From the NCBI GenBank assembly GCA_025201705.1, contig MU616588.1:29267-93266 (forward strand): a stretch of 64,000 nucleotides of DNA. Direction: 5' to 3'. Source of the stretch: Dissophora ornata (Eukaryota > Mortierellomycota > Mortierellomycetes > Mortierellales > Mortierellaceae). A program made the translations under genes and the position numbers. Shown here in pieces: positions 45,035-50,697 of the stretch; within the stretch, counting starts at the first letter, position 1, and each line of letters begins with the position of its first letter. Below the pieces are notes generated by a model. It saw nothing but the letters and a program-made list of their open reading frames with translations, had not been told where the DNA came from and did no database searches.

Positions 45035-46531
45035 TCAATTGACTGCTGCATTCGTCTCGGAGGAAGTTGCCTCGTCTGGAGCGACCAAGAGTTGCTGAAT
45101 AGCAGAATGATCTCCAGCGACCTTGTAGGCATGGAAATTCCTCAATAGCCCGTCCACATCCTCCATGCTCTGGTTTTTAATGTCGGCCAACTTCTTGATT
45201 TTGCCCGTAATGGCCTTGAGATCGTCGTCAGACAAGGCCAGACCCAATTGCTCTGCACGGTTCTTGACTGCGTTCCAGCCTGTGAGACGATGGCCGATTG
45301 ATACGTAGCGAGTCATGCCAAAGACCTCTGGCTTCAAGATCTCGTAGGTCGCAGGGTTATTAAGGATAGCCTTGGCATGAATACCAGCCTTATGTGTGAA
45401 AGCGCAATAACCTGTGATGCAGTTGTTGAAGGGGACTTGGATCTCAACAGCGTCAGCAATCAGGTTCTCGAGGTCGCGCAGCTGATGCAATTTGTACTTG
45501 GAGGCAACATAGTCTGGGTCGACAGTGAACATGCGGGCGATCAAATTTCCAATGGGAGTGATGCCGTTGCGCTCGCCAATACCGAGGACCGAAGTGTCGA
45601 TGTGTGTTGCGCCAGCCTCCAGGGCAGCATAGGCATTTGCAGTCGCACAGCCCGTATCTACAAATAGAAATCATAATTAGCACGTGAGGATAATAGCACG
45701 TCACAATTTATGATCAAGAAGTTCTTGATTGTGACTCCATTGATGGATAATGATCTACTGAGACACTCACCGTTGTGGAAGTGGCACTCGATGTCTGTAG
45801 TGGGCTTCAAGACGGAGCGGAGGGTCTTGACAAGATCGTAGACCTGGCGAGGATTGGCACAGCCGACGGTATCTGCAATTCCAACGCGGTTGACACCAAG
45901 TTGATCGACAGCCTTGTACAGGTTCAATAGATCGACGAGATCCGAGCGGAATGAGTCTTCGGACGAAAAGCGGACCTCCAAGCCCTTGGACTTGACGTAG
46001 TTGATGACTTCAGTTGCGTCCTTGATAATGCGGTCCATGTCCTTGCCATGGCTGAACTCGCGGAGGTACGAACTATAAAAAAAATTGACACATTCCATCA
46101 GTTCAAGCTCTTTAAAGACGAAACGCTTGATCATCCTCCAGCTATCAAACCCCTTCTTACCTGGTGCCAATAACAACATCAAGACCATCAACACCGGTCT
46201 CGCAGGCAATCCGTGCATCATCCATGTGGCAGCGGACGTGTGTAAGGATCTTAGCTTTGAGCCCAAGATTGGCAATGGCGATGCAGTCTTGGCGAGACTG
46301 CTCGGAAGCAGCAGGAGACGTCAGCTCAATGTACTCGACTCCAAAATCATCTAGAGCTTTCGCAATCTCAATCTTTTTGGCGGTGTCAAAGAAAGCGTTG
46401 GCAAACTGCTCTCCTTCACGGAGAGTTGATTCAATGATGGACCAATTCGTAAGACGAGAGAGCGAGTCTGTGAACTTGGGAGCATATGGGCTAGACGAAA
46501 CATTGGCGATCGGGCTGGCATGTGGTGGCAT
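45035..46531 (-). CDS. LYS20: Homocitrate synthase
   Basis: Three exons (46161-46531, 45771-46072, 45035-45657) give 431 residues. It condenses acetyl-CoA with 2-oxoglutarate, the first step of alpha-aminoadipate lysine synthesis. Landmarks: [20 protein letters not shown] (catalytic Arg-Glu pair of the DRE-TIM barrel), [46 protein letters not shown] (metal His pair), [16 protein letters not shown] and [10 protein letters not shown]. No clear mitochondrial presequence at the N terminus. A TATA-like element (TATAAA, minus strand, 46671-46676) lies 140 nt upstream of the start. Confidence 0.95.
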
Positions 46532-47322
46532 GATGAGAGTATGTATGGTGGTGTGGAGAGGGTGAAGGTGTGTAACGACGAGTGAGGGAATGTTTACAGG
46601 ACACTATGCTTGTGGAAGTTATGGACGAGAAAAGTATACCAGAAGAAGAAAAGATGAAGATGGGATCCGTTTTATAGCTGCAGAAAAAAAAGAAACAGGA
46701 AGGTTTCGGATTTCATGTGTGGAAAGATGGTGAGATATGATATGGATTTAGACTATCTCAGTGGATAATATGAAGATCGCACGGGCGTCGTTGATTGATG
46801 GTTGGTATCTAGATTTGACAATCGCATATGACAAGTAACACCTTTGAATCGCGATGCGATAAAAAGAACACACCCCTCCCCCCTTAGCGAGCCCGCCCCC
46901 GGAAAACCTTCTTTTTTCGAACAATCATGACTTGTTATTTTTCAGAATACATGTTGTAGACACTCGCTCCTAGCAGATCCTCTTTGCATCCACGTTCCTC
47001 GAAAGAGGCTGCTGATATGGTGGCACGGATTTCTGAAGCAACCAACCCAACCACTCCTTTGTGCCTGCTCGGCCAAGAAACCCCCCTTGTTTATGGGAAA
47101 TAGTGGGGTAGCGAAGAGGATGAGATGTGCATTGAAATCATCATCTCACTTCTTTCCTCTTTCATCGTTCGCTGTCAATTTCCCTCCCTCAACTCGCCTC
47201 TGATCTTGGCGCCTTTCTTTTCGCCTTTGCCGTTTGCAACGAATATTGTTCATCTTGCTTCTCTTTCAAAGGGAGTGATTACTCCATCCCATTTTCGGTA
47301 GTGACTCTGACCTTTCGAAGCC
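46532..47322. promoter_or_regulatory. Divergent intergenic region, LYS20 / SPX-AstE gene
   Basis: 790 bp between head-to-head genes. Contains the TATA-like element for LYS20 at 46671-46676 and pyrimidine-rich sequence before the SPX gene (about 47150-47290). No ORF of interest. Confidence 0.5.
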
Positions 47323-50167
47323 ATGAAATTTGCAAAGCAACTCGGCTTGAGGAGTATCCCCAGCTGGGCGCCTTACTACGTTGACTACAAGTCTTTAAAG
47401 CACTACATCAAGGCCTCGTTTAAGGATTTTGCTGGTATGGATCTGCCGAAAGAAGTCATTCTGTATTTTCATCACACACCGCATTACGAAAGGCAACTGA
47501 CTTGTAGAATCATATTCTTCGCTGTTTGCAACTCTAGGACCGTTAGAACCTCTCGAGAGTCTGGATCATGAAGACCCAGAAAAGATTACCCAGGTCATAA
47601 TTGATCAGCAAGTCGAGCCCAGACTCACTGGGAATGGCTCACGCGAGCGTACGGATGCCGTCATGGATACTGACAATTCGAGCGATGCTCCTGGCCAGCA
47701 GACTCTCATAACCTCAGCTGCAGACGAGACTCAGGTCGAGCAGAGCCAAGAGCGAGGAAATCCAAAACAAAAGACAGGAGTTGTCAGCCTCGACAATGGA
47801 GTCAGCCTCGACGATGGAGCCAGCCTCAATACCATTACGGAAGGTTTTAAAGCCCTTCTGTGGGCTGAGCTGGAAAAGGTCAATGCGCGCTATGAGGCTC
47901 AAGAGCGTGTTGCCAGCGTCAACCTGGAGCGTTTGAACGCAAGCGTAAGTGGTGCGTATTGCTCTGTGATGTATAACAATAGTGTACTTTGTTTACTGAC
48001 TTTTACCAAGCTTATTCTCAATTACCCTCGGTAGTGGCGACCGAATTTTACTCCTGCCGAATTAAAGCAATGGTGAGCTACACGTTGCTGTCAAACAATG
48101 CCTCCTCCTCCTCCTCCTCCTCCTCCTCCTCCTCCTCCTCCTCCGAAAAAAAAAATCACCAACACCACCACAACTACAACCACTACTACTACTACTACTA
48201 ATACTACTACTACTACTCAACACCCCGTTACGTTCACTACTCCTGATAACTTGAAATAGGCGAAGCGATCTCACAGTTCTGATCCTCAACTTGGAGTACC
48301 TTCTGGAATTCAGCCAAACAAATATAACCGGGTTCAAGAAGATCATCAAAAAGTTTGACAAGCATTACCGGAACTCCTCCTCGGCATCATCGATCAATGC
48401 CTCTGAGCAAGGCAATGGTATCCAGGGGGCACATGATCCCAACAACGCCCTGACGTATCGAGGGTCTTCGCTTGCGGATTCTGATACAGCAGGTTCTTTA
48501 TCAATGTTCAGTGCCCTCGGCATCCACGGTCGAAGCACTCCTACGATCTATCTCCCTCACAGCTATCCGGAGCCTGCGTCGAGTCTTCATCCTCAGGAGC
48601 CATTCATTAGGCACGTGCATTCGCCTAACACGCATTCTAAAAGTACTTTTTACCACAACTACTATGGCGGTGTTTCAGCTTTAAGCCTCGAGTTCTGGAA
48701 AATGGTAACAGAACGAACGTTTGCCAAAAGTGAAAAAGACGAACGTCTTCTAGCAGAAGCAAGAACTGTAAGTATAAAGTATACGTCCTGGCGAAGATGA
48801 GGTTAAAAATAATTAGATTCCTTGATCTGAGTACCTTTACTTTAACATCCCTATAGCTTTGGAGAAAACGTACTCCTGTTGTCCCGGAACACGTTTCTCC
48901 TCTGCTGCTCAACGTCGACCCAAAGGACTATCCAGTGTGGGATGACTTGGACTTGGAGAGTCTTCCATCGGGTAGATTGACACGACTTTGGATGGTGCTT
49001 GCAGAGGATGCCATGAGCAGTCCTATCAGGGTGCCTGTCATTGTTGCCAAGGGCGTTCGACCTGGGCCCGTTGTAGGGCTGGTAAGTTGCAGTATTACTT
49101 TCGATAATTTCTGAATATCATCGAAAGCCCATGCTCACCAATTTATACTATAAATCGTTTATAGACGGCGGCTTTGCATGGAAACGAGTTGAATGGAATT
49201 CCTTTGACTCATCGGCTGGTTCTTGAAGAGATACAGTGCCAGGCGCTCCATGGCATTGTTGTCGCTGTCCCAGTTGCTAATGTGCCGGGATACTTGGCTG
49301 GACAGCGTGGATTCAGCGATGGCACAGACCTCAATCGACTTATGCCGGGGTACGACGATGTTTTTTTGAATGAGTTCAGTTTAATTGTCGATATACAAAT
49401 GGTGTTTAACTCTTGTTTGACGAATCCCGCAATAGCAAGAAGAACGGATCAACATCGCAGGTGTACGCTTACAACTTGATGACTAGGCTTGTTCGACACT
49501 TCACCCATCTGATTGATCTTCATACAGCCTCAAAGGGACGCGTAAATTCCCTTTATGTTCGGGCCAACATGCAAAATGCAACCACCCGGCATATGGCTCG
49601 ACTTCAAAACCCTCAGATTATTGTTCACAATACCTCGCCTGACGGATCGTTGCGTGGAGCGGCCATGCAAGGGTACCACATCCCTGCTATCACTGTTGAG
49701 ATTGGAGACCCCTCTCGGTTCCAAAAGCGATTCGTTAAGAGCGCCATATTAGGTGTCACGAATATTCTTAGCCACCTTAAGATGATTGAAGATGAGCACG
49801 AGGTTCAAGATTACGACCCTGTTGTCTGTGCTAAGAGTGTAAGTGTAGCAGCTATCGCTCTCTCGCAGAAGTGCTGTGTCCTCGTATCTGACCACTCCTT
49901 TGACCTCCATAGTATTGGATCTTCACGAAAGGCGGCGGAATCCTTAACGTGCTGCCGGATGTTAACACGTGGGTTCGCAAAGGCGAGCTGATTGCCACTC
50001 TCCACAATATTTTTGGTGAGGAAGAGCATAGGTATTTTGCGCCCGAGGATGGTATTGTTGTGGGCAAGTCTGTAGATCCGGTCTGCCAGAGTGGTTGTCG
50101 AATCTTGCACTTGGGAGTCGTTAGTGATCGGTTCCCGGAGGGTAAGATGGACGATGGACATCAGTAG
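47323..50167 (+). CDS. SPX domain fused to AstE/AspA-type zinc deacylase
   Basis: Eight exons (47323-47434, 47508-47944, 48035-48072, 48260-48767, 48857-49081, 49165-49349, 49436-49838, 49913-50167) close in frame to 720 residues. N-terminal SPX domain: [32 protein letters not shown], then after a long acidic/Gln-rich insert the last helices ([32 protein letters not shown]), with the lysine cluster that binds inositol pyrophosphates in known SPX domains. C-terminal domain of the succinylglutamate desuccinylase/aspartoacylase family: [11 protein letters not shown] (zinc His and Glu), [24 protein letters not shown] (third zinc His), [11 protein letters not shown] (catalytic Glu region), then a lipoyl-like beta region near the end. 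It would couple phosphate sensing to deacylation; the substrate is unknown. The longest intron carries trinucleotide repeats. Confidence 0.88.
48101..48217 (+). repeat. (CCT)n and (ACT)n microsatellites inside an intron
   Basis: A pure CCT run of 44 nt (48101-48144), an A run, then an ACT/CTA run (about 48182-48217), all in the third intron (48073-48259) of the SPX gene, upstream of its acceptor. Out-of-context translation gives poly-Ser or poly-Arg ORFs that are artefacts. Confidence 0.95.
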
Positions 50168-50616: not shown

Positions 50617-50656
50617 GGCGATATGGCCGAGTTGGTCTAAGGCGCCAGAATCAGGA

Positions 50657-50689
<33 letters not shown>

Positions 50690-50697
50690 TGTCGTCA
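50617..50697 (+). tRNA. tRNA-Leu (anticodon CAG)
   Basis: 81-nt cloverleaf: acceptor GGCGATA pairs with TGTCGTC (two G-U pairs), D arm with GGCCGAGTTGGTCTAAGGC, anticodon stem CCAGA/TCTGG enclosing ATCAGGA (anticodon CAG after T33), a long variable arm (TCCGAAAGGGCG) typical of leucine tRNAs, T arm TGGGT/TCAAATC/CCACT. No intron. Internal A box and B box (GTTCAAATCC) serve Pol III. It sits 172 bp upstream of the YAK1 start. Confidence 0.93.

Follow-up and report, generated by a model that had tools for sequence, protein, structure and literature searches.

An SPX domain fused to an AstE/AspA-type hydrolase in Dissophora ornata, and the K478 protein family linked to its bacterial relatives

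Gene structure and domain content

The locus described here is a single gene of the fungus Dissophora ornata, located on the plus strand at positions 47323 to 50167 of a 64,000-nucleotide stretch of contig MU616588.1 (the window, in which all positions of the gene and its neighbors are given). Its eight exons encode a 710-residue product, SPX-AstE, that joins an SPX domain to a catalytic domain of the AstE/AspA type (Table 1). After removal of seven GT-AG introns (103, 90, 187, 89, 83, 86, and 74 bp), the frame is uninterrupted from the ATG at 47323 to the stop codon at 50165 to 50167. A preliminary description of this DNA had proposed one spliced frame with seven introns, and both its end points and its intron count proved correct. 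The splice sites around exon 3 are the least certain; the sites adopted have gtaagt and gtgagc as donors and agree at this exon with homologue P0033 (TWRPNFTPLELKQWRSEL). Two other ways of splicing exons 2 to 4 also lack internal stops, but both require a gttgct donor and were rejected.

Table 1 Exons and residues of the SPX-AstE gene, neighboring features in the window, and two genes in other records
Feature	Positions	Strand	Content
Exon 1	47323-47434	+	Start codon, SPX helices alpha1-alpha2, pocket residues; donor gtatgg
Exon 1 pocket residues	Y19 (47377), Y22 (47386), K26 (47398)	+	
Exon 2	47538-47944	+	Low-complexity linker and SPX helix region; donor gtaagt
Exon 3	48035-48072	+	38 bp, SPX segment; based on homologue P0033
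Exon 4	48260-48767	+	SPX lysine helix/motif and linker toward hydrolase
Exon 4 pocket residues	N207 (48321), K213 (48339), K216, K217	+	
Exon 5	48857-49081	+	End of linker, first AstE/AspA strands
Exon 6	49165-49349	+	HGNE, predicted zinc ligands H435 (49177) and E438 (49186); R478
Exon 6 DLNR	N487 (49333), R488 (49336)	+	
Exon 7	49436-49838	+	HTAS, predicted zinc ligand H521 (49521); VEIG, predicted catalytic glutamate E580 (49698)
Exon 8	49913-50167	+	DoeB-type C-terminal beta domain; stop codon
CTC triplet-repeat tract	48101-48145		Within intron 3, ahead of the exon that holds the lysine motif
tRNA-Leu (CAG)	50617-50697	+	~450 bp downstream of the gene
Divergent upstream frame	46157-46603	-	HMGL-like domain (PF00682, E 3.7e-26); probably homocitrate synthase
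Fungal K478 homologue (L105)	G000:C179:37924-40728		662 aa
Lone second form of AstE	L043:985-2031	-	DLNRNFPG

Both domains scored above their gathering cut-offs, which places the product in the SPX family and in the AstE/AspA superfamily. SPX (PF03105) matched in two stretches with E=2.1e-19 (71.2 bits; cut-off, 27.8), the best covering residues 1 to 171, and AstE_AspA_cat (PF24827) matched residues 424 to 606 with E=1.1e-29 (103.8 bits; cut-off, 25), with the model covered in full (positions 1 to 192 of 192). No further Pfam family was found in the 710 residues at E 0.001. The sole AstE_AspA_cat match in the fungal genome consists of two exons of this gene, and SPX matched at 20 places. DoeB was both the best NCBIfam match and the closest solved fold of the hydrolase, but the score of 58.7 bits falls far short of the DoeB equivalog cut-off (TIGR02994; 402.7 bits). 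Scores for succinylglutamate desuccinylase (NF003706; 21.4 bits; cut-off, 170) and aspartoacylase (NF002601; 18.6 bits; cut-off, 180) were likewise under the curated values, ruling out DoeB, AstE, or AspA proper. The hydrolase belongs to a distinct AstE/AspA subfamily with a modeled DoeB/CphZ-like fold and is predicted to be a zinc amidohydrolase.

Distribution of the fusion and conservation of its residues

Searches with SPX-AstE returned 279 proteins under E 0.001, and the figures given here are for the best 120 of them. SPX and AstE occur together on 101, three carry AstE with a GSH-S/RimK-type ATP-grasp domain, and 16 carry AstE alone. The fusion claimed in the preliminary description is therefore real, and its caution that the architecture might already stand in domain databases was apt, as precomputed Pfam annotation displays it on those 101 proteins. 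Chance is far from able to account for the agreement: the homologue of Dissophora globulifera (P0001) is 81% identical across 100% of the query, and 35 relatives match 95% or more of its length; linker lengths differ widely among homologues. Among the listed matches, fungal hosts of the full fusion include Mortierellales, Geosiphon, Ambispora, Kickxellales, Basidiobolus, Neoconidiobolus, chytrids, Saitoella, and Pneumocystis, and the carriers thus comprise many early-diverging fungi and Taphrinomycotina; protist hosts include Plasmodiophora, Spongospora, and Balamuthia. When 9 of the 16 relatives with AstE alone were rescanned, 5 contained sub-threshold SPX pieces. One homologue with both domains, P0100, has a GECG identifier, which we take to be a transcriptome shotgun assembly (TSA) prefix, making a single mRNA likely for it.

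Residues were compared in an alignment of 101 fused homologues with the window protein, with fractions taken over non-gap rows. The SPX ligand pocket formed by helices alpha1, alpha2, and alpha4 is present in the window protein, and its residues are kept in about 94 to 100% of rows, both in alpha1-alpha2 (Y19, 89/93; Y22, 87/93; K26, 92/93) and in the lysine helix (N207, 97/100; K213, 95/100; K216, 94/99; K217, 98/98). The expected zinc and catalytic residues H435, E438, H521, and E580 are invariant (101/101), and R478, N487, and R488, the expected binders of a substrate carboxylate, show no variation. For the first four, we assume the roles of their aspartoacylase counterparts; the roles of R478, N487, and R488 and of the SPX residues K26, K216, and K217 are presumed as well. 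Loss of the SPX lysines or zinc ligands in homologues had been named in the preliminary description as evidence that would speak against it, and both sets are retained. In the VTC complex, mutation of the residues matching Y19/Y22, N, or K gave partial or full activity in the absence of ligand, with barely any response to it (PMC10167327); the roles of Y19, Y22, N207, and K213 are taken from this work.

When 64 catalytic domains were placed in a tree, a branch with support of 100/99 separated 24 rows, 4 of them with bacterial names; none of the 24 has an SPX domain, and every row bearing a eukaryote name falls on the opposite side. This arrangement is compatible with one passage between domains of life. 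Because the outgroup branches are ~4 changes per site long, the root is unreliable, and no direction of transfer can be drawn from the tree.

Bacterial gene neighborhoods

Short relatives among the listed matches are 51 to 56% identical to SPX-AstE over most of the catalytic domain. Gene neighborhoods were examined on genome contigs for the best 80 of 479 relatives, whose titles name Bacteroidota groups except for L080 ("bacterium"); neighbors were counted where an AstE could be assigned, which was the case for 79 loci. Of these, 73 contain a GshB-like ATP-grasp gene (GSHS; representative match to PF02955, E 1.4e-29) and 68 a protein of ~478 residues without a Pfam match (K478). The gap between GSHS and AstE has a median of -4 bp (first-ATG frames), with AstE in translational coupling to the ligase gene. 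K478 > GSHS > AstE alone was the most frequent gene run (33/79). Nine of the 79 runs, all with GSHS and AstE (L043, L049, L052, L056, L058, L059, L060, L077, and L082) also contain polyamine-type genes, namely, arginine decarboxylase-, agmatinase-, and deoxyhypusine synthase-like genes (the first alone in one run), a hint that points to polyamines. In five loci of the Phaeodactylibacter group (L075, L078, L084, L089, and L091), AstE has neither K478 nor GSHS nearby, both being elsewhere in the genomes; in some of these loci it is preceded by a SET-domain gene and another conserved gene. A lone second form of the AstE subfamily, with DLNRNFPG, was seen in L043 (Table 1) and L120, and the L120 copy starts like a signal peptide.

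Because the 80 loci had been picked by similarity, 198 Bacteroidota genomes, the centre included, were drawn evenly. The AstE subfamily was found in 8 of these genomes and K478 in 7, each of which also had AstE on the same contig, ~1 kb or less away (Fisher 4e-12 with the centre and 9e-11 when it is left out, uncorrected for kinship). In three of the seven (G091, G112, and G165), GSHS is missing between K478 and AstE, whose matches are separated by 8 bp. G165 has NNSSPSG versus NNSCPSG in K478 and HGDE versus HGNE in AstE; its K478 is a sequence variant rather than a degenerate copy. Plasmid records gave 281 AstE matches, all below 60% identity (30 listed at 30 to 35%), and no match to K478; the AstE matches were read as other branches, and plasmid neighborhoods proved uninformative.

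The residue after DLN in AstE follows the presence of GSHS. All 73 loci with GSHS have H after DLN/DIN (69 by pattern and 4, with MSG or DIN variants, by eye), and the only R among the 80 frames is in the lone second copy on the opposite strand of L043. In six further loci, H occurs although neither GSHS nor K478 lies in the local stretch; five of those genomes have GSHS elsewhere (E 7e-91 to 2e-81) as well as K478, and the sixth locus, L090, is truncated. DLNR occurs in the three operons without GSHS and in G137, where AstE stands alone and is probably secreted; searches for GSHS in these four genomes gave only distant ATP-grasp matches (best E 1.6e-25, 1.4e-5, 5.7e-4, and 1.9e-24). In genomes searched whole, H thus accompanies GSHS in 8 of 8 and R its absence in 4 of 4 (Fisher 0.002), or 3 of 3 without G137. 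All 102 fused rows have R. GSHS had no match in the fungal genome, in a search without a positive control whose empty answer shows nothing alone; taken with the uniform R, it suggests that the eukaryote enzyme resembles the two-gene type. We infer that the arginine of DLNR recognizes a free carboxylate, which in DLNH bacteria would be capped by GSHS.

K478 and a putative inositol pyrophosphate kinase gene in the fungus

K478 has a homologue in the fungus (Table 1). Relatives of K478 numbered 3,824 under E 0.001, and the best 120 of these reach down to ~68% identity; none of the 120 carries a Pfam domain, and the hosts among the matches listed include Mucorales, chytrids, and Rozella. The only RimK (PF08443) match in the fungal genome is one exon, which from its sequence we take to belong to a VIP1/PPIP5K-like inositol pyrophosphate kinase, and RimB (PF05618) had no match in that genome. 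A link to RimK-type S6 glutamylation in the fungus was rejected on these grounds. Given a VIP1-like kinase gene, as so read, the inositol pyrophosphate ligand is probably made in the fungus.

Discussion

We favor, with confidence about evenly divided, the reading that SPX-AstE is an inositol-pyrophosphate-gated zinc amidohydrolase whose substrate is probably the product of a K478 amide ligase. The product of K478, as an ATP-grasp-like ligase, would be a small amide or isopeptide, and hydrolysis of this amide or dipeptide would fall to SPX-AstE. Inositol pyrophosphates bound by the N-terminal SPX domain would set the hydrolase rate, so that activity would follow phosphate status, and ligase and gated hydrolase would jointly control the pool of the small compound. 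Because the bacterial members of the subfamily are tied to K478, which is retained in the fungus, an N-acyl amino acid is no more likely a substrate than an amide or dipeptide made by a ligase. The preliminary description had pictured an aminoacyl or acyl-amidase reaction under phosphate control; the fusion and its conserved residues are borne out, whereas that reaction and that control stand as proposals. By analogy, the AstE-type enzymes of the cyanophycin pathway, which cleave beta-Asp-Arg/Lys (PMC10206079), support a hydrolase of a ligase-made amide, and the putative VIP1-like kinase gene of the fungus supports control by inositol pyrophosphates.

Several observations weigh against this reading. 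Sequence searches of Pfam, NCBIfam, and PDB gave no credible family placement for K478, and its ATP-grasp-like model has a middling predicted local distance difference test (pLDDT) score of 74.3. Among the matches listed, Mucorales are named for K478 and in neither AstE list, so the two genes can part; Kickxellales and Pneumocystis, though both have SPX-AstE, are not named among the 120 listed of 3,824 K478 relatives. One of the eight AstE genomes in the Bacteroidota sample, G137, lacks K478, its lone AstE having a likely signal peptide. Four of the nine rescanned relatives with AstE alone have no SPX trace, the structure model does not fix the placement of SPX relative to the catalytic domain (predicted template modeling [pTM] score of 0.65), and the DLNR/DLNH split is drawn from related genomes of a single phylum.

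The protein could instead be a DoeB-, AspA-, or AstE-like deacylase that is regulated through SPX and acts on an N-acyl amino acid, with K478 unrelated in eukaryotes. DoeB is the nearest relative by fold and by NCBIfam score, every named biochemical relative by score is a deacylase, and the Mucorales have K478 with no listed SPX-AstE. We nonetheless consider this reading rather unlikely, as the scores lie far below the curated cut-offs, K478 accompanies the bacterial relatives in 7 of 8 genomes, and a related AstE-type branch cuts dipeptides. Translational coupling to the ligase gene, together with fusion to a ligase in three listed proteins, fits biosynthesis as well as turnover, and AstE might act forward, unmasking or finishing a product built by K478 (and GSHS) while SPX gates synthesis. 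Retention of K478 by Mucorales without a listed SPX-AstE, and lone bacterial AstE genes such as those of G137 and the second copy in L043, fit an optional step better, and the forward role appears less probable still.

The hydrolase may also be real while SPX merely places the protein (at the vacuole, at the acidocalcisome, or in a complex) without gating catalysis. Such a role would suit the unfixed arrangement of the domains and the widely varying linkers, but the pocket residues are kept nearly throughout, and we judge it quite improbable. That two adjacent genes were joined in error is scarcely credible: although the Dissophora ornata gene model is known from sequence alone, such an error is incompatible with the domain content of the relatives and their full-length alignment.

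The favored reading, of a gated hydrolase opposing K478, can be extended to a more tentative proposal, possible but doubtful, in which an amide ligase/hydrolase cycle, so far undescribed, consists of K478 and SPX-AstE and is common to bacteria and deep eukaryotes. In eukaryotes, SPX would have captured the hydrolase arm, inositol pyrophosphates would control a small amide, and the DLNR arginine would read the carboxylate that is capped where GSHS is present. If so, the amide would perhaps be glutathione-like, an acidic-basic isopeptide, or a polyamine conjugate, and phosphate status would be linked to nitrogen, polyamine, or thiol pools. More generally, a widely conserved SPX-amidohydrolase would extend phosphate signaling into amide, peptide, or polyamine metabolism, and the linked K478 family would offer a direct handle on the metabolite.

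The preliminary description had called the link between SPX and an AstE/AspA domain uncharacterized to its knowledge; consistent with this, searches of the open-licence literature for an SPX domain paired with an aspartoacylase, a succinylglutamate desuccinylase, or a deacylase found no paper, which does not imply absence from print. A term search of that literature likewise found nothing on the bacterial operon. SPX domains are known to act in transport, in polyphosphate synthesis, in glycerophosphodiester hydrolysis, and in the control of transcription or kinases. SPX-enzyme fusions already known are Vtc4 (SPX-polyphosphate polymerase) and GDE1 (SPX-glycerophosphodiesterase); in the one described here, however, the catalytic domain is of the AstE/AspA zinc hydrolase type. 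DoeB (N2-acetyl-L-2,4-diaminobutanoate deacetylase; 6twm) is 21% identical to the modeled homologue; SPX-AstE differs from it in its sub-cut-off score, its SPX domain, and its bacterial neighbors. CphZ (cyanophycin dipeptide hydrolase; 8ein and 8eip) matches in fold at 16% identity but lacks SPX and is linked to cyanophycin genes rather than to K478. By its model, K478 may resemble ATP-grasp ligases (3k1t, a putative gamma-glutamylcysteine synthetase; glutathione synthetases; and glutathionylspermidine synthetases), but its sequence matches none of the families in Pfam, NCBIfam, or PDB. Thus, SPX on an enzyme is known, SPX on an AstE/AspA hydrolase stands in domain tables, and the pathway behind it is possibly new.
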